Below are positions 7,129 through 50,644 of a stretch of 64,000 nucleotides of DNA, one piece after another. A program made the position numbers and the translations under genes. Within the stretch, counting starts at the first letter, position 1, and every line of letters starts with the position of its first letter. Source of the stretch: Chthoniobacterales bacterium. GTDB lineage: Bacteria > Verrucomicrobiota > Verrucomicrobiia > Chthoniobacterales > UBA10450. The notes under the pieces were generated by a model, which saw only the letters and a program-made list of their open reading frames with translations, was not told the origin of the DNA and searched no databases. The DNA lies in the NCBI GenBank assembly GCA_013815325.1, contig JACDGM010000004.1:1-64000 (forward strand), in the 5' to 3' direction.

Positions 7129-8043
7129 ATGCTCCCTGACCTCCGCTTCGCACCACCCCGACTGGGCAAGGCACCCGGCTTCACTTTTATCGCCCTCCTC
7201 ACGCTCACGGTAGCTCTCTCGACGAGTGGAGCGCCGGCGCCTCTCGGCGTCTTTCCTTTTAAACGCGATGGCCAGCTCATGCTGGTGGAAGTCAGCATCA
7301 ATAAGTCCACGCCCGCCCTCTTTTTCGTTGATTCGGGCGCATCCCACACCGTCTTCGATCCGAAATTTGCGAAGGAGCTCGGGTTGAAAATCGAGAGCGC
7401 TCCTCCCACCACTGGAACCGGAACGGGCGACGTGCCCAAGTCTCACTCCGAGCCGGTCGTGATGACATTAAACGGCTTGAAGGTTGATCTGCCCGAGCCT
7501 TGGGTGATCGATCTCAGTAAGGCGTCGTTACCCGCCGCCGTGAGAGGACTCGTCGGAGCGGAGATCTTCAAGACCTACGTGGTCAGAATGGATCCGGTGC
7601 AGTCGACCTTCACCCTCTTCGATGCCGCATCCTATCGTCACGAAGGCGACGCTCCGGCCATTCCTCTCCACGTCGAAGGCGACAAGCTTTTCCTCGAAGC
7701 AGCTCTGGAGGTTCCGGCCGGCCAAACCGTCACGCACAAGCTTCGGATCGACACCGGCTCGGAATCATCCGTTAACGACGAGATCGTGCAGCGCTCAGCC
7801 GAAGTCCGCAGCAGCAATCTGGGCGGCGGATTGGGAGAAAACTTCAAGTCGTACTCAGGCGTTTTCTCTTCCGTCAAAATCGGTCCTTATATCGTTAGGC
7901 ACGTCTGGGGGCCAGGCGGGCCGCGTCCGGCCATCGGCATGGAGCTTTTGCGGCGGTTCATCATCACCTTCGATGCGCCCCACGGGCGGATGTATCTCGA
8001 GCCAACACCAGCCTTGGCTGAACCGGTCCCGACACCGCCTTAA
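7129..8043 (+). CDS. Retropepsin-like aspartyl protease with a permease-derived N-terminus
   Basis: A 304-residue predicted aspartyl protease of the bacterial retropepsin-like type with two lobes. The first catalytic motif is FFVDSGASHTVFD (DSG at residues 68-70) and the second is LRIDTGSESS (DTG at 208-210); each is followed by the expected hydrophobic-Gly segment (VGAEIF near 142, AIGMELL near 278). The first roughly 28 residues (DLRFAPPRLGKAPGFTFIAL and LTLTVAL) are not protease sequence. They match the start of the neighbouring permeases ([27 protein letters not shown]), so a permease start and its first membrane helix now serve as signal or anchor. It lies 12 bp before permease gene 4 and after a repeat element. 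It is likely exported or membrane-anchored; substrates are unknown. Confidence 0.85.
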   Translation: MLPDLRFAPPRLGKAPGFTFIALLTLTVALSTSGAPAPLGVFPFKRDGQLMLVEVSINKSTPALFFVDSGASHTVFDPKFAKELGLKIESAPPTTGTGTGDVPKSHSEPVVMTLNGLKVDLPEPWVIDLSKASLPAAVRGLVGAEIFKTYVVRMDPVQSTFTLFDAASYRHEGDAPAIPLHVEGDKLFLEAALEVPAGQTVTHKLRIDTGSESSVNDEIVQRSAEVRSSNLGGGLGENFKSYSGVFSSVKIGPYIVRHVWGPGGPRPAIGMELLRRFIITFDAPHGRMYLEPTPALAEPVPTPP

Positions 8044-13024: not shown

Positions 13025-15472
13025 ATGCTAACGGACCTCCGCTACGCCTTTCGCATGCTCCTGAAAGCACCGGCATTCAGTATCATCGCGATCGTCGCGC
13101 TCGCTCTTGGGATCGGCGCCAACACCGCCATCTTCAGTGTCGTCGATGCCGTCTTCATGCGGCCGCTCCCCTACCCGCATTCCGAGCAGCTCGTGCTCTT
13201 GCGCGAAAAAATGCCGCTCTTCGACACCGGCGCGGTCAGTTACCCAAACTTCCTCGATTGGCGCGCGGCGCAGCGCAGCTTGACTGATCTGGCGCTCTTC
13301 CGGCGCGAGTCGATGAACTTGTCGAGCCGGGGCGAAGAAACACCGCCGGAACGAATCGCGGGCGCAGTCATGAGCTGGAATCTTCTCCGGATCACCGGGC
13401 TGAAACCGCTTCTCGGACGCGATTTCACGGAGGCGGAGGATGTGCCGCACGGCCCGAAGATCGCGCTCATCAACGAAGCGCTCTGGAAAAAGCGCTTCGA
13501 CGGCTCGCCCAAAGTGATCGGCCAGCAGTTGCTGGTCGATGCCGTGCCGCGCGAGATCGTGGGCGTCCTGCCTAACGAAATGCAAATGATGCGCGCGGCA
13601 CAGGTTTATCTTCCGTTAGGCGATTTGCGCTCGGAGCACGATGTTTTGCAGCGCGATAGTCATCCGGGGTTTTCGGCCTTCGGCCGGCTCAAGCCCGGCG
13701 TCACCCTGAAGCAGGCGCGGGCCGATCTCGACAATATCGCGCACGAGCTGACCCGGCGTTATCCCGCCTCGAACACCGGCCGCACGATCAACGCAATCGA
13801 ACTCCTCGAGTCGGTGATCGGCGATTACCGGCAAAATCTGCACCTCCTCCTCGTCGCGGTCGGTTGCGTTCTGCTTATCGCCTGCGCCAACGTCACCAAC
13901 CTGCAGCTCGCGCGCGCCCTCGCCCGCGGCAAGGAACTGGCGGTGCGCGCGGCGATGGGGGCGAGCCGCTGGCGTTTGATGCGCCTGATGTTGATCGAAA
14001 GCGCGATCCTCGGCGTGGTCGGCGGGCTCGCCGGATTGCTCATCGCGCTCTGGAGTCTCGATGCAATTCATGCGCTCAGTCCGCCTAACGTCTCGCGTTT
14101 CCAGGAGACGCGGCTCGATTTCCTGACACTTGGTTTTGCGACCGCGACCGCTTTGCTTTGTGGAATTCTCGTTGGCATCTGGCCGGCCTGGCGAATCTCG
14201 CGGCTGGTCTCGCTGAGCGGCGTGTTGCATGAAGCGGGGTCGCGCGGCGGGAGCGACAGCGGCGACCGGCAGCGCGCGCGCGGCATCCTCGTCGTGACCC
14301 AGGTGGCGCTCGCCCTCGTCCTCCTGGCAGGGGCTGGCCTAACGATACGGAGCTTTTGGAATTCGGAGAACGCGCGGCTCGGCTTCGAGCCGCACGGCAT
14401 CCTCACGATGACGTTGGCGCTGCCCGAGGCGCGCTACGATTCCAATGAGAAGATTGCCAATTTCAACGCGCAACTGATCGAGCGGGTGAACGCGCTGCCT
14501 GGCGCGGCCATGGCGGCGATCGGCTCGAATGTGCCTTTCGATAACACGGAATGGGACAGCTCCTTTCATCTCACCGGCTCGCCGCCTAACAAACCCGGGC
14601 AGGAGCCCTCGGCGGAAGTGAACGTGATCTCGCCGGATTATTTTAAGGTGCTGAAAATGCCGCTGCTGCGCGGCCGCGGCTTTGGGCGGGAAGAGAGGCT
14701 GAAGCAGCCGCGCTCCGTCGTCATCGACGACGTCCTCGCGAACCGATATTTCCCCGGGCGAGACCCAATCGGTCAGCACATCGACGACAACCAGACGAAC
14801 GATGAGAATCCGCCGCCGCTCACGATCGTGGGAGTGGTGCCGCACGTGCGCCCGGATGTGCCGGGAGGAAAGTTCGACCGGCTTAACCTGCCGCAGATGT
14901 ATTTCAGCGCCGCGCAATTGACGACGCACGATGAAAATAATCTTCTCGTGCGCGTGGCCAGTGGCGATCCCGGTGCGCTCGCGCCCGCGGTCGTTAGGGC
15001 GGTGCAGAGCATCGATCCGGATCAGCCGGTCGCTTCCATCGCGGCGATGGAAAAGAACATCTCGGAAAGTCTGGCGACGCGTCGCCTAACGATGACGTTG
15101 CTGGGCGCGTTCGCCGCGCTCGCGCTCGTCCTCGCGAGCGTCGGCCTCTACGGCGTAATGGCGTTGAGCGTGACGCAGCGGACGCGGGAATTTGGCATCC
15201 GGCTCGCGCTTGGGGCGCCGCGGCGGGATGTTTTCCGGCTGGCCCTTGGCCGCGGGCTGCTCCTCGTTGGAATTGGGCTGGCCCTGGGGTTGTTAGGCGC
15301 CCTTGGCGCGGGCCGCGCCCTAACGAGTCTGCTTTACAATGTCGGAAGTCTCGATCCGGCGGCTTTGTGCACAGCCATCTTCGCGCTCGCGGCGGTCGCC
15401 CTGCTCGCCTGCTGGTTTCCCGCCCGCCGCGCCACGCGCGTCGATCCGATCGTCGCGCTTCGTTATGAGTAA
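13025..15472 (+). CDS. ADOP-type ABC permease (array member 6)
   Basis: Full-length 815-residue orphan permease with N-terminus FRMLLKAPAFSIIAIVALAL then [22 protein letters not shown]. The first FtsX block reads LIACANVTNLQLARALARGK and AMGASRWRLMRLMLIES. The second periplasmic domain is a little expanded (NQTNDENPPPL and VRPDVPGG near residues 590-620). The C-terminal block is [20 protein letters not shown] with ALGAPRRDV, ending [10 protein letters not shown]. It carries three exact 9-mers (13570, 14337, 15084). Its last codons and the following 100 bp resemble the 3' end of gene 3 and its trailing repeat, which points to recombination between array members. Confidence 0.93.
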   Translation: MLTDLRYAFRMLLKAPAFSIIAIVALALGIGANTAIFSVVDAVFMRPLPYPHSEQLVLLREKMPLFDTGAVSYPNFLDWRAAQRSLTDLALFRRESMNLSSRGEETPPERIAGAVMSWNLLRITGLKPLLGRDFTEAEDVPHGPKIALINEALWKKRFDGSPKVIGQQLLVDAVPREIVGVLPNEMQMMRAAQVYLPLGDLRSEHDVLQRDSHPGFSAFGRLKPGVTLKQARADLDNIAHELTRRYPASNTGRTINAIELLESVIGDYRQNLHLLLVAVGCVLLIACANVTNLQLARALARGKELAVRAAMGASRWRLMRLMLIESAILGVVGGLAGLLIALWSLDAIHALSPPNVSRFQETRLDFLTLGFATATALLCGILVGIWPAWRISRLVSLSGVLHEAGSRGGSDSGDRQRARGILVVTQVALALVLLAGAGLTIRSFWNSENARLGFEPHGILTMTLALPEARYDSNEKIANFNAQLIERVNALPGAAMAAIGSNVPFDNTEWDSSFHLTGSPPNKPGQEPSAEVNVISPDYFKVLKMPLLRGRGFGREERLKQPRSVVIDDVLANRYFPGRDPIGQHIDDNQTNDENPPPLTIVGVVPHVRPDVPGGKFDRLNLPQMYFSAAQLTTHDENNLLVRVASGDPGALAPAVVRAVQSIDPDQPVASIAAMEKNISESLATRRLTMTLLGAFAALALVLASVGLYGVMALSVTQRTREFGIRLALGAPRRDVFRLALGRGLLLVGIGLALGLLGALGAGRALTSLLYNVGSLDPAALCTAIFALAAVALLACWFPARRATRVDPIVALRYE

Positions 15473-15577: not shown

Positions 15578-16170
15578 ATGACTGACTTCCGTTACGCTTT
15601 CCGCCAGTTCGCGAAATCACCCAGTTTCACACTGACCGCGCTGGCCACGGTCGCGATCTGCCTCGGAGCGAATCTCGCGATCTTCGCGGTGATCGATTCC
15701 ATTCTGCTCCGGCTGCTGCCTTTTCCGAGGGCCGAGCAGTTGGTGACGATCTTCAAAAACACCTATCCGAAAGCCGGAGTCGAGAATGACGGTTCGTCGC
15801 TGACCAATTACTACGAGCGGCGCGGCCACCTCCCGGCTTTCTCGAGCCTTTCCATCTTTCGCTACGACAGCGAAGTCGTCGGCGACGCGGTGCGACGCAA
15901 CAGGAAGAGCTCATGCGCGTCTCGCCGGATTTTTTCGCGACGCTTGGCGTCAGCCCGGTGATGGGTCGCAGCTTCAACGAGATGGAAACGATGACGGTTG
16001 AAAACAACGGAGTGGCCATCTTGACCGACGCCTACTGGCGCCAGCGCCTCCCTTCCGATCCAAACGTCCTCGGCCGGGAAATCCGCTTGAACGGAGTGCC
16101 AAGAAAAATCGTCGCAACGGTGGAGGCGAATCCGGAAGACTACCCCGCCGAGAAGGCCACCCATTCATGA
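15578..16170 (+). pseudogene. Frameshifted, truncated ADOP permease remnant
   Basis: The N-terminal part of a permease: DFRYAFRQFAKSPSFTLTAL, a first helix and a stretch of the first periplasmic domain up to SIFRYDSEVVGDA. Near base 15888 the frame shifts. The homologous text continues in another frame as ATQQEELMRVSPDFFATLGV, then SFNEME and NGVAILTDAYWRQRLPSDP. The sequence stops at 16170 after about 195 codons, so roughly 600 residues including all FtsX blocks after the first helix are missing. Its TGA overlaps the ATG of the next permease. I read it as a dead copy created when gene 7 arrived or when a deletion joined two copies. Confidence 0.85.
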
Positions 16171-18578
16171 ACGACCTGCTGCTGGACATTCGTTATGCGC
16201 TTCGCGTGCTGTGGAAGTCTCCCGCGTTCACGGTCGTAGCCACCCTCACTCTGATGCTGGGCATTGGGGCAAACGTCGTCGTCTTTGGAGTAGCGAATGC
16301 GGTGCTGCTGCGCCCCCTCGATGTGAGCGAGCCGCACAACCTATATCAAATTCGCCTCAACCCATGGACGAGTGGCAAAGCACTTACTACATCGTATCCC
16401 GCATTCGAAGACTACCTGCAGCAAAACACCACGTTCACCGGCCTGGCAGGCTATAACGGATTTACAGGGGGGAGACTGCGCTGGGGTAACACGGTGAAGA
16501 GTGTCTCGGGCTATTCGGTCACGGGCAACTATTTCGAGTTCTTGGGCGTGCAGCCGCAGCTAGGCCGACTGATCCAGTCGGCGGACGATCGCGGCCCGAA
16601 CTCAGCGCCCTACTTGGTGTTGAGCGATAGTCTTTGGCGAACCGCATTTAACGCTGATCCCAGCGTCGTCGGGACCGCCGTGCGGCTCGGCAAAGATCCT
16701 TTCACCGTAGTGGGCATCGCACCGGCGCGGTTCCACGGCACGGAGCGATTTGGCTGGCCGGAGTACTGGATACCCGTCGTGAATGACTTCGACGCGAAGT
16801 ACCTGCAGGATCGCAAGGGCAGACCTTTGACGGTGCTTGGTCGACTCAAACCGGGCGTGACGCCGGAGCGGGCTGCGGAAGATCTGAGTGCAATCGCCGC
16901 GCAGTTGGCAAAGGAGTATCCGACGACAGACACCGGAGTGCCGCTGCGGCTCGTCCGTCCGGGACTCCAAGGGGACGCCCGTGACGTCATCCACGGATTT
17001 CTTTATGGTGTGACCGGGCTGACTCTGCTCGTGCTCGTCGCAGCGTGCGCCAATCTGGCGAGCCTGTTTGCGGCGCGCGCGGCCGATCGCAATCGGGAAC
17101 TGGCGCTCCGTGTCGCCCTCGGCGCGAGCCGATGGCGGCTGGTGCGGCAACTGTTAACAGAGGCGATAGTGGTGTCGATGCTCGGCGGAGCCGCGGGGCT
17201 GGTGACCGCGAGCCTGCTGCTGGGTGCGCTGAACCGGTGGCAGTCGCCGCCCTATGGCCAGGTGGCAGTCAGCGTGGATACAGGTGTCTACCTGGCGGCT
17301 TTGATCTTGACGCTCGTAAGCGGGCTGCTCTTCGGCTTGATCCCGGCGCGGCAGGTGTGGCAGAGCAGTCCGTTGCAGGCGATGAAGAGCGGACCGGTGG
17401 ATTCAACGCCGCGACGTCGGCTGTCCTTGCGGGATCTGTTGTTAGGCGCACAAATTGCCATATGCACGCTCCTGGTCACCGCCTCATTCGTCGCGGTGCG
17501 CGGGATGGTGCGCGTGCTGCACGCGCCGCTGGGGTTTCAGCCGCAGGACGCAATGATCGCCGAAATGGCCGTGAGCGAGGAAGGCGACGTGCCGCTTGAG
17601 ACGAAGAAGAAGGCGATGCTCGAGGCAGTGCGGAGCATCCCTGGTGTGACGGCGGCGGGGACCGTGAGCAAAGTGCCCTTCACCGGCGGCCTCCGCGGGA
17701 TTCCGATTTTCCCTCCGGGGACGACAGAGTTCACGCTGAATCATGCTGTGCTGGAGCCGTACGGGCTGACGATTTCGCCCGCATACTTCGAGGCTGCCGG
17801 CACCCGGCTCCTGAGTGGCCGCGATGTCTCGTGGTATGACACCGTCCGGACGCCCTATGTGGCAGTCGTAAACGCAACCTTCGCGCGAAAGATGTGGGGC
17901 GACGCGCCAGCGATTGGACAACGCTTCATTGTGTTCGGCCACTTGAGGGAAGTGGTGGGCGTCGTGGAGGACTCAAAGTATAACGAAATCGCCGAGTCGC
18001 CGCCGCCGGCGTTCTATCTGCCGTTTTTGCAATACGAGCAGGCGAACACGACTTTCGTCGTCCGGTCGCAGCGGGCGCAGAACGAGATGGCGGCAGCGCT
18101 CGAACGCACCCTGAGTGGATTCGCGCCCGATGAGTCAATCGCGGTGCAGAGCTGGCGCGATGCGATGGCCGGTGCGCTGTTCCCGTCCCGCTCGGCGGCC
18201 AGCGGACTCGGAGTCATGGGCCTGCTGGCGGCGATGCTGGCGGTGACCGGCATCTTCGGCATGGCCGCCTACAACGTGAGCCGCCGGATGAAGGAGATCG
18301 GCATCCGCGTCGCCTTGGGTGCGCGCACGAAGCATGTGATGAGCGCTGCGGTTGGGAGGCCAATCGTGCTGCTCGGGGTTGGCTCGCTGGTGGGGCTGCT
18401 CTCGGGCGTCTTCGCCAGCCGCTTATTGGGGCAGATTGTGTATCAGGCGAATCCGCGGGATCCCGTCGTCGTGGTCGGCGCGGTGCTAACGATGGCGCTC
18501 CTGGGCATTGGGGCGTCCGCCATTCCAGCCTTGCGAGCGCTTGCCGTCGATCCATCCAAACTCCTGCGGGAAGACTGA
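16167..18578 (+). CDS. ADOP-type ABC permease, divergent (array member 7)
   Basis: Full-length 803-residue orphan permease that differs from its neighbours. The N-terminus is LLLDIRYALRVLWKSPAFTV, with an extra LLxDIRY lead-in. The first FtsX block is VLVAACANLASLFAARAADR and the tail is AVDPSKLLRED instead of VDPxVALRxE. The last block has TGIFGMAAYNVSRRMKEIGI, replacing the common IGIYGV and SVAQRT. Codon choice is more mixed (more CTG, GTG and GGA, fewer CGC runs), and it holds no exact 9-mer, only one TTGTTAGGC variant (17439). The length is normal. Its features suggest a separate ADOP lineage acquired or moved into the array; the start overlaps the stop of the pseudogene (ATGA). Confidence 0.92.
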   Translation: MNDLLLDIRYALRVLWKSPAFTVVATLTLMLGIGANVVVFGVANAVLLRPLDVSEPHNLYQIRLNPWTSGKALTTSYPAFEDYLQQNTTFTGLAGYNGFTGGRLRWGNTVKSVSGYSVTGNYFEFLGVQPQLGRLIQSADDRGPNSAPYLVLSDSLWRTAFNADPSVVGTAVRLGKDPFTVVGIAPARFHGTERFGWPEYWIPVVNDFDAKYLQDRKGRPLTVLGRLKPGVTPERAAEDLSAIAAQLAKEYPTTDTGVPLRLVRPGLQGDARDVIHGFLYGVTGLTLLVLVAACANLASLFAARAADRNRELALRVALGASRWRLVRQLLTEAIVVSMLGGAAGLVTASLLLGALNRWQSPPYGQVAVSVDTGVYLAALILTLVSGLLFGLIPARQVWQSSPLQAMKSGPVDSTPRRRLSLRDLLLGAQIAICTLLVTASFVAVRGMVRVLHAPLGFQPQDAMIAEMAVSEEGDVPLETKKKAMLEAVRSIPGVTAAGTVSKVPFTGGLRGIPIFPPGTTEFTLNHAVLEPYGLTISPAYFEAAGTRLLSGRDVSWYDTVRTPYVAVVNATFARKMWGDAPAIGQRFIVFGHLREVVGVVEDSKYNEIAESPPPAFYLPFLQYEQANTTFVVRSQRAQNEMAAALERTLSGFAPDESIAVQSWRDAMAGALFPSRSAASGLGVMGLLAAMLAVTGIFGMAAYNVSRRMKEIGIRVALGARTKHVMSAAVGRPIVLLGVGSLVGLLSGVFASRLLGQIVYQANPRDPVVVVGAVLTMALLGIGASAIPALRALAVDPSKLLRED

Positions 18579-18691
18579 GGCAGGTGAAAACTAAAACCCT
18601 ACCATTTCGATTTACGCTCGGTCCCTCAGCGGTAGCTGATCTTATTCTCGTTAGGCATTCCTAGCGCTCACTAGTCATTAAGTTCAAATAT
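18579..18691. other. Non-coding gap
   Basis: A 113 bp AT-richer gap between permease gene 7 and the chimeric ORF. It contains one exact TCGTTAGGC at 18648. I see no gene, clear promoter or hairpin. Confidence 0.6.
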
Positions 18692-19078
18692 ATGTGTAAA
18701 CTGATTCAAACATTTTTCCTGGCTGTATTTGCGTGTGGTTGTCTGAGCGCGGAGACGCCTCTATGGCAGCCATCACCGGGACACACTCAAGTGCCGATAT
18801 GGCCAAAGGAACCGCCTGATGCGCAGCCTGTCGCAGGGCCGGAGGAGATGAAAACCTCCTCCGCTAGGGACGCCAAATTGCATGTTGGCGAAACTGTGAA
18901 GGACTCGCTGGTTGCTGGCAAGCCATGGGTTGAGGTGAGCAACGTCTCTCAACCTACCATGACGGTCTATTCGCCCAAGGGAGAGAATACGGTGATCGCG
19001 GTGTCACTCTTTGCCTGTTGGTTTCCCGCGCGCCGCGCCGCGCGAATCGATCCGATCATTGCGCTTCGTTATGAGTAA
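18692..19078 (+). pseudogene. Chimera: esterase N-terminus fused to a permease C-terminus
   Basis: A 128-residue ORF made of two unrelated parts. Residues 1 to about 103 look like the start of a secreted alpha/beta-hydrolase (esterase) of a family whose members begin with a signal peptide and [10 protein letters not shown]-type and [20 protein letters not shown] text just before the catalytic domain. The catalytic domain itself is absent. After SPKGENT the sequence jumps to [20 protein letters not shown] followed by LRYE, which is the last 25 residues of an ADOP permease. The junction is near bases 18990-19003. A deletion that removed most of an esterase gene and most of a permease gene explains it. 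It is probably non-functional although the frame is intact. Confidence 0.8.
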
Positions 19079-19099: not shown

Positions 19100-19188
19100 T
19101 GTAGAGGCGGGGGTGTCGCCCGCAAACGTCCGGAGCCAACGTGCACGACCACGCCTGGCTCTGCGGCCGACACGGCCGCCGCTACACA
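19100..19188. repeat. Intergenic repeat, copy 2 (TGTAGAGGCGG...CCGCCGCTACA family)
   Basis: Second copy of the element at 12914-12999: TGTAGAGGCGGGGGTGTCGC at the left and GCGGCCGACACGGCCGCCGC plus TACACAA at the right. The middle about 35 bp differs between copies. It is followed by about 45 bp of simple sequence (CAGCAATCGGCGATCAGTCC type) before permease gene 8. Confidence 0.85.
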
Positions 19189-19234
19189 AATCAGCAATCG
19201 GCGATCAGTCCGCCTCAGGCGGATCAGCAATCTC

Positions 19235-47934: not shown

Positions 47935-49808
47935 CGCCGGCCAATTTCATCCTCGCCACGGCCGGTCATGTCGATCACGGCAAGACCGCGCTGATTAAAG
48001 CGCTTACCGGCACGGACACCGACCGGCTGCCTGAGGAAAAAGCGCGCGGGATGACAATCGATCTCGGTTTTGCCCATCTCGCGCTTCCTGGTTTTTCCAT
48101 CGGCGTGATTGATGTTCCCGGTCACGAGGATTTCGTCCGCAACATGATCGCCGGCGTGGGCTCGATCGATCTCGCGCTTCTCGTCGTCGCCGCGGACGAC
48201 GGTTGGATGCCGCAAACCGAAGAGCACCTCCAAATCTTGAGCTATCTCGGTGTGACCCGCATCGTAGTCGCGTTGACGAAAGCTGACCTCGGCCAGACCG
48301 CGGAGCGCCGCGCGGAAATTCGTCAGCAACTGCGCGGGACGCCGTTCGCCGACGCTCCAATCGTCGAGACCTCGATTCGCGACGAGACCGGTATTGCGCT
48401 CTTGGGGGAAGCGCTCGCAGCTGAGTTCGGAAAACTTCCGCACGATCGTGCTGGGGAGAAGCCGCGGCTCTTTGTCGATCGCGTTTTCACCGTTCGCGGA
48501 AGCGGCACGGTTGTAACGGGCACGCTCAGCGGCGGCCCACTCACGAGGGGGGCGACCGTGCGCGTGCTGCCGCAAAAACTGGTCGCTCGCATCCGGATGA
48601 TCCAGAGCCACAACCAAACACTGGAAATCGCCGAACCAAGAACACGGACGGCGTTAAACCTTGCCGATTTAAGCGCGGATGAGGTCGCGCGTGGCGCCGT
48701 CATTGTGTCGCTCGATGCGGGCGAGCCTTCCTCGATGCTCGACGTCGTTCTCGAAAGATCGAAACGTTTGCTCCCTTCCGCGCGTCGCTTGAAATCGGGA
48801 TCCATTTTGAACATTCATCACGGCAGCGCGCGGGTCCCGGCGCGGGTGCAATTGCGCGGCCGGAAGGAGCTTCTGCCTAACGACAAGGCAATCGCACGCC
48901 TTCTCCTCCGTACTCCGGTTTTGGCTTTTTTCGGCGACCACTTCATCGTGCGCGATTCTTCCGAGCAAGTGACCCTGGCGGGGGGGGTCGTCCTCGATGC
49001 CTGTGGCGAAGGAATAAAATTTCGTTCTTTGCCGCAGCGCGCGTTGCTCGACGCGCGGCGGCGCGCGCCTAACGACTGCCTAACTTTTTTGCAAACACAA
49101 TTGCAGCGGGATCATTTCTCCCTGCGATGTGACCTCTTGTCGAAATCGCCCTTCCAGCGGGAAGTGATTTTCCGTGGGCTCGAGACGCTGCAGGCGGATG
49201 GCCGCATCTTTCTCGACGAGAAGATCGCGGCGGATGGGAAGTGGTGGCGATCGCTTCTGGAAGAGGCGGCGAACTGGGTCGACGCCGAGCACGCCGCGCA
49301 CCCCGAGCAGGCTGGGCTGGAACTTGCGCGGCTGCGTGAGGCTTTGCGTCTCGCGCACGCGGATGTTTTCGAAGCATTGCTGCGAGATTTGGCGAAAGAG
49401 GGTTTTGTCCAGACGCGCAATGCAGTCCATCGAGCGTCGCATCGGCCGTCGCTTCCGCCGACGTTGCGAGGCGCGGGCGATCGCATCCGGGCCTCTCTTA
49501 CCGCCCGACCGCTGGACCCGCCGTCGCGCAAAGAATTGGCGACGGGCGCGGGCGCGCCAGAGGCATTGCGTTTTCTTTGCGAGACCGGCGAAGTCATCTC
49601 GTTAGGCGAAGAAGTGGTCATTTCCGCGGATGCTTTCGCGCAGCTCACGGCCTTGGTCGTAGAACAGTTGCGGGCAAAAAAGGCGGCGACGGTGAGCGAG
49701 CTGCGCCAGGCCACCGGCACCACCCGCCGTGTGATCGTCCCTCTGCTGGAACGTTGCGATAAACTTGGCCTAACGACGCGGGAAGGAGATTACCGCCGGC
49801 TTCGTTAG
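47931..49808 (+). CDS. selB: Selenocysteine-specific elongation factor SelB
   Basis: A 625-residue translation factor. The GTG start overlaps the selA stop (GTGA). The EF-Tu-like GTPase domain has GHVDHGKT (12-19), [22 protein letters not shown] and LTKADL. Domains II and III continue with [20 protein letters not shown]. The C-terminal third (about 380-625) consists of winged-helix modules that bind the SECIS RNA, ending [20 protein letters not shown]-like text ([20 protein letters not shown]). It carries Sec-tRNA(Sec) to UGA codons marked by the hairpins described here. Its TAG stop lies within a TCGTTAGGC word and overlaps by 4 bp the converging stop of the formate channel gene. Confidence 0.97.
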
Positions 49809-50644
49809 GCGCCCTCGCCTGCGCCGCTGCTGATATATTCGGCGTGCGCGATCGCCGCCACGATGGAGGATCCGCCGATGATGTTCCCGAGCAGGATCGG
49901 CCCGATGTAGGCGAAGTATTGGGCAAAGGTTTTCACGCCCGTCATGACGAGATAAAACGCGTCGACCGAGCCGGCCACGCTGTGGGAGAATTCTCCGATC
50001 CCGACGATGTAGGTGATGATGATGATGACCGCGACGCGGGCGGTCTCCGCGAATGGCAGCAGCCAGACCATGAGCGCGATGAGCCAGCCGGCGAAGATGC
50101 CGCGGAGGAGGAGCGTGCCGAAGCCGTGATTCATGCTTGCGAGCCCAAGTTCCTTCATCGCCTGGTGCACGTTCGGCGCGACCACGCTGGTGTTGCCCAT
50201 CACCCAGGCGACGATGAGCGCGCCAACCAGATTGGAGGCGAGCACGATGGCCCAGAGCCTAACGACGTTGCCAAAGGTGCGCAGATCTTTCTTGCGCAGC
50301 AGCGGCAAAATAACCGTGAGCGTGTTCTCGGTGAAAAGCTGTTGCCGGCCGAGCACGACGACGAGGAATCCGATGCAGTAGCCGAATTTTGCCACGAGCG
50401 GCCGCCACGGTGTATCCGGCAGATGGCTGCGCAGGAGACCTTCGCTCAAAAGCGAAAAACCCATGGATAATCCCGCCGCAAGTCCGGACCAGGCGAGCGC
50501 CGCGTTGGAGCGCTCGAGCTCATCTTCGCCTTCCTTCTTAACCGCCCGGTAAACGATGTGGCCGCCGGGAGACGAACGCTGCTCGACCTCCTTCGCTTCC
50601 GAATCGGCTTTTTCCCCGGACGGCTTTTCCTTCTCGTTAGGCAT
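49805..50644 (-). CDS. Formate/nitrite-type channel, YfdC-like
   Basis: A 279-residue inner-membrane protein of the FNT family with six predicted helices. A charged 45-residue N-terminal tail precedes ERSNAALAWSGLAAGLSMGF. The signature is VVLGRQQLFTENTLTVILPL, closest in my memory to E. coli YfdC rather than FocA (which has a shorter N-terminus). Later segments are AGWLIALMVWLLPF and GEFSHSVAGSVDAFYLV. The gene is last in the minus-strand formate dehydrogenase operon, 18 bp after the NrfD-like gene, so it probably carries formate, perhaps importing it for the dehydrogenase. The start codon is followed at once by a 9-mer (50634). Confidence 0.85.
   Translation of the reverse strand: MPNEKEKPSGEKADSEAKEVEQRSSPGGHIVYRAVKKEGEDELERSNAALAWSGLAAGLSMGFSLLSEGLLRSHLPDTPWRPLVAKFGYCIGFLVVVLGRQQLFTENTLTVILPLLRKKDLRTFGNVVRLWAIVLASNLVGALIVAWVMGNTSVVAPNVHQAMKELGLASMNHGFGTLLLRGIFAGWLIALMVWLLPFAETARVAVIIIITYIVGIGEFSHSVAGSVDAFYLVMTGVKTFAQYFAYIGPILLGNIIGGSSIVAAIAHAEYISSGAGEGA

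Follow-up and report, generated by a model that had tools for sequence, protein, structure and literature searches.

An esterase-permease chimera and a probable integron-cassette-derived segment in a Chthoniobacterales permease cluster

How does a reading frame come to hold the start of an exported esterase at one end and the last residues of a membrane permease at the other? The question is raised by an open reading frame (ORF) at 18692-19078 on the forward strand of a 64-kb stretch of DNA, here called the window, from a Chthoniobacterales bacterium, at a locus formed by a tandem cluster of 13 genes for ADOP duplicated permeases (TIGR03434, MacB_PCD plus FtsX). The frame runs from ATG to TAA without internal stops and encodes 128 aa, namely the N-terminal ~100 residues, exported leader included, from an alpha/beta-hydrolase of ~313 aa, continued in frame by an ADOP tail of 25-28 residues. 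An earlier note on this DNA had explained the fusion by recombination hot spots at permease ends. We consider it probable instead that the chimera is the right junction of an integron-cassette-derived segment lying inside an already broken ADOP gene, termed Y. The features that enter the argument are these:

13025-15472, forward strand: ADOP permease gene T, with the tail closest to that of the chimera.
15578 to ~16164, forward strand: 5' fragment of ADOP gene Y, frameshifted near 15886 and ending at the start of gene A, a pseudogene remnant (tblastn with the orthologue of relative G004).
16167-18578, forward strand: intact ADOP permease gene A, 803 aa, with patchy orthologues in relatives and cassette-like in relative G010.
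18590-18656, forward strand: right half of an attC site, with R' (GTTAGGC) at 18650-18656 and no left half (similarity to attC of relatives; covariance model R1).
18692-18991, forward strand: 5' part of the esterase, ~100 codons with leader, truncated before the catalytic domain (homologue alignments; Pfam on the homologue in relative G022).
18989-19003, forward strand: junction zone from esterase to permease (comparison with esterase homologues and Y permeases).
18993-19078, forward strand: ADOP 3' end within the chimera, most likely of gene Y, with a Y-like VSL start and a T-like last ~60 nt (TIGR03434; tail comparisons).

Each half of the ORF is significant by itself, that is, above chance; joining in frame alone has a chance of 1 in 3. 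Residues 101-128 match positions 776-803 of TIGR03434, its last 28 (E 2.2e-8), bearing out the earlier claim of an in-frame run into the last 25 ADOP residues, and the tail shows the conserved PARRA..DP..ALR.E end of these permeases. Unlike them, the chimera has 25-28 of ~800 residues, without a periplasmic or a complete FtsX domain, and its 32.7 bits fall below the curated TIGR03434 cut-off of 622.3 for full-length members. Neither a Pfam search of the ORF nor a search of a plasmid collection with it gave a match. On the esterase side, where the earlier note had proposed comparing residues 1-103 with alpha/beta-hydrolases, 30-odd esterases can be aligned to residues 12-107, most of them with 42-60% identity, and 34 loci in public genomes encode relatives. 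The chimera shares the leader, the family motif and the first ~100 residues with exported alpha/beta-hydrolases (PF07859 Abhydrolase_3 / PF20434 BD-FAE), but lacks their entire catalytic domain. Its best same-family relative is a full-length 313-aa esterase gene in G022 (69% identity to the chimera), with an Abhydrolase_3 domain at 94-285 (Pfam); family resemblance is lost after the equivalent of residue 90, 3-4 residues before that domain, so the N-terminus is indeed cut just ahead of it, as had been proposed. A ~36-nt insertion in the window's esterase part is absent from homologues, and the missing esterase 3' part was not found anywhere in this genome assembly. Codon-position counts give more third-position differences in the esterase part, an excess that reflects its past as a working gene and has no bearing on the chimera.

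The esterase-permease reading frame itself is real, and the same full-length composition occurs in none of 384 genomes of the class and none of the 34 homologous esterase loci, nearly all of which continue into the catalytic domain, stop at a contig end or are frameshifted. The fusion was seen in this genome alone among those searched, supporting the view that recombination made it. It is extremely unlikely that the ORF encodes a functional new secreted protein built of esterase leader and permease tail: the frame is open, with its start and leader intact, but the catalytic domain is gone, the 384 class genomes hold no orthologue, a membrane-helix tail would sit on an exported peptide, and the 36-nt insertion has no counterpart in homologues. 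Most likely, the ORF is a non-functional remnant or pseudogene, its frame left open through the 1-in-3 chance.

A source for the esterase part is indicated by the DNA just upstream. Copies of the intergenic stretch 18590-18671 are numerous across the family, and those in relatives and in this genome form arrays with a spacing of 0.4-1.3 kb; against attC regions of relatives, 18590-18656 shows 80% identity over 84 nt and 82% over 67 nt. Full attC sites read GCCTAACC...GTTAGGC, with long and imperfect arms. An alignment of 27 sites from relatives and this genome displays the classical fold with R''/R' and L''/L' stems and compensatory changes on both sides in 10 of 23 pairs; these pairs, together with the arrays, rule out an ordinary interspersed repeat and identify attC. 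The covariance model built from the 27 sites (R1), with the window site left out of training, gives one strong match in the 64-kb window, at 18539-18656 (38.2 bits, E 1.9e-8), and the next scores 16.4 bits. The R' motif (GTTRRRY) and the conserved right arm are present (GCTGATCTTATTCTCGTTAGGC, ending at 18656); R'' (RYYYAAC) and the pairing left arm are absent: the left half of the model covers the final codons of gene A, and several of its pairs are broken. Since these codons are conserved in the gene A orthologues of G010 and relative G003, the right half alone is real, and this is a half site. The single-strand fold of the region has a z-score of -0.18.

Integrons are at home in this genome, which has ~54 attC model matches in 4.15 Mb and full-length integron integrases above the TIGR02249 cut-off on contigs C30 and C179, none of them at the window locus; the one on C30 is oriented divergently to a cassette that has an attC behind it. 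The 11 relatives tested have 1-80 attC sites each, and Verrucomicrobiota is listed among the phyla with integrons (PMC8618304). The setting resembles integron cassettes and CALIN (attC clusters lacking an integrase) in its R''/R' and L''/L' arms, its arrays and the integrases elsewhere in the genome; it differs in that the attC is halved and the cassette gene truncated, both within a permease cluster, and in that the joins lie off the attC cleavage point.

Other repeats and variant sites were seen alongside. The second-best attC model match in the window (16.4 and 15.6 bits on the two strands) is a 43-nt stretch at 49768-49810, with palindromic ends GCCTAACGA..TCGTTAGGC, where two convergent genes meet, and is probably not attC. 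In G003, two attC sites (L072, contig C99, 299-442 and 1180-1323) carry an identical ~21-nt right-arm insertion (CCAGTCGAAGACTCACTGTGGTGAGCGG), possibly marking a sub-type. Short dispersed palindromic repeats of the CTGCGGCCGACACGGCCGCCGCTAC and CCGCCTCAGGCGG type lie at 19162-19186 and 19196-19232 of the window, and many of the family's genomes have copies of them.

The G022 esterase is cassette-borne, as a complete attC (5944-6064 of L074, 47.7 bits) lies 6 nt ahead of its ATG; GCCTAACC, the beginning of the next attC, follows ~8 nt past the esterase stop. The corresponding distance in the window, from the end of the attC half to the esterase ATG, is 35 nt. A close esterase homologue occurs in two of the 58 genomes searched, this one and G022. 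Beside the other 34 esterase loci no attC was found with the present model, which is lineage-specific, so that other attC types are possible there. With the attC half directly in front and a cassette-borne orthologue in G022, an integron is a better source of the esterase than a hot spot at permease ends. The same evidence bears on an ordinary deletion that joined a resident esterase gene to a neighbouring permease gene, next to an attC half present by coincidence. Such a deletion would need a single event at the right junction, and with 54 matches in 4.15 Mb attC is common in the genome; however, the only strong attC-like site of the 64-kb window falls exactly there, its distance of 35 nt from the esterase start is echoed by the 6 nt in G022, and the esterase is found in no other genome of the genus. 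We regard this deletion as unlikely.

The neighbouring gene A extends the cassette reading to the left. Its orthologues were found, among 8 genomes, in G010 (78%) and G003 (75%) only. In G010 an attC remnant precedes it (53.2 bits), and downstream come an attC-like 3' end, recognized by eye only and unscored by the model, and then another small gene. The upstream attC of G010 (L102, contig C12, 7840-8104) is interrupted, ahead of its R' end, by ~120 nt of inserted DNA. Near gene A of G003 there is no attC. The pattern suggests that the 2.4-kb permease gene A behaves like a cassette; the missing attC in G003, the downstream end seen by eye in G010 and the half site in the window weigh against a cassette origin of the segment.

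To the left of gene A lies what is left of Y. The Y orthologue of G004 matches at 75% identity over 103 aa and then at 60% over 78 aa in a different frame, and PED..HS residues tentatively extend the fragment to ~16164; orthologues of Y are present in 9 of 18 relatives. Their tails nearly all begin VSL.A(C/S) or VSI.A, a motif rare among other ADOPs, and the chimera tail begins VSLFAC, its DNA TGATCGCGGTGTC matching that of Y (TGACCGCGGTGTC). Further along, the tail DNA comes closest to the end of gene T, with 59/66 nt and a third-position identity of 0.80 over 20 codons; for the last 25 residues the log-odds favour T (2.74) over Y (-2.4). A precedent for such a mixed tail exists in relative G005, where, just as in the window, Y comes directly after T and the two genes are almost identical over their last ~55 nt; third-position identity is 0.90 in the tails and 0.27 in the bodies (L142, contig C60, 735-5630), which reads as a clear case of local gene conversion between tandem permeases. 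An unconverted end of Y is weakened as an explanation by the last 22 residues of the chimera, and Y was kept as the tail source because of the first residues (VSL), the position and the G005 conversion. In the simplest reading, the fragment at 15578 to ~16164 and the chimera tail would be the two ends of one Y gene, the tail converted from T.

There is a small chance that the tail next to the same cassette-derived segment is a separate piece of T or of a T sister, in which case the locus would have lost Y's end together with the front part of another permease. The 59/66 nt, the third-position identity and the log-odds would all suit this version. Against it, the first residues (GCGGTGTCACTC, VSL) are of the Y type, the Y 5' end lies just upstream in the same orientation, and G005 has undergone T-to-Y tail conversion without losing Y.

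The joins themselves can be placed closely, as read from one assembled genome. At the right join the window reads AATACGGTGATCGCGGTGTC, where esterase homologues have AATACGGG.. and Y permeases ATGACCGCGGTGTC..; it is esterase-like up to AATACG(G) at 18991-18992 and Y-permease-like from TGATCGCGGTGTC at ~18993. The microhomology that the earlier note had proposed to look for at 18990-19003 thus comes to ~1-4 nt at most, as judged on relatives in place of the true parents. At the left join the window reads GCCACCCATTCATG and the G010 leader of gene A CCGCCCATTCATG; judging again by relatives, CATTC would be common to the gene A leader and the conserved RHS/HS codons of most Y orthologues. As neither join sits at the attC cleavage point, illegitimate recombination is likelier than an integrase reaction, and site-specific insertion by IntI at a secondary site is disfavoured on the same ground. 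It is highly unlikely that unrelated contigs of this fragmented genome (209 contigs) were joined by the assembly. Repeated permeases and attC sites could mislead an assembler, yet each parent has few nt in common with the joins, tail and T match exactly over no more than 18 nt at a stretch, and for sequence spanning the joins the exact matches within the window's first 30 kb reach at most 10 nt. Usual k-mer assembly would need longer matches than these, and runs of N are absent.

Under the preferred reading, a segment of ~2.8 kb, composed of permease gene A, the half attC and the 5' part of the esterase cassette, would have replaced the middle of Y by illegitimate, short-homology recombination at both ends, in one event or several. 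Y codons from about 180-215 to about 780 would be missing, and the tail would be Y's own 3' end after conversion from T.

What, then, of hot spots at permease ends? Third-position identity of the last 20 codons was compared with that of the body in 52 adjacent, 294 other same-genome and 2580 between-genome ADOP pairs. The ends gave 0.406, 0.405 and 0.409 and the bodies 0.403, 0.407 and 0.401, respectively, with no excess of ends over bodies across the 52 adjacent pairs, which speaks against a general hot spot; recombination at a permease end holds up in one case, the G005 tail conversion. A protease fusion that the earlier note had counted as a further permease-end case falls away as well, as it involves the start of a permease: the aspartyl protease at 7129-8043 of the window (PF13650) has ADOP-start-like residues in its first ~28 positions. 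Its composition is not a one-off, because a 78% paralogue on contig C43 (L078, 13370-14346) also lies directly behind an ADOP gene, in a frame beginning MNDLRFALR.

For tandem permeases, the G005 pair provides a clear case of tail conversion. It is very unlikely, although conceivable, that tandem permease clusters of this lineage repeatedly receive pieces of integron cassette arrays, and that nearby paralogues and tail conversion would there give rise to novel chimeric proteins for export, some of which are retained. At the window locus, an unspecific hot spot gives way to a probable source that can be traced, namely leakage of integron cassettes into gene clusters of the chromosome, and the setting of this leakage would be an integron-rich lineage with large permease arrays.
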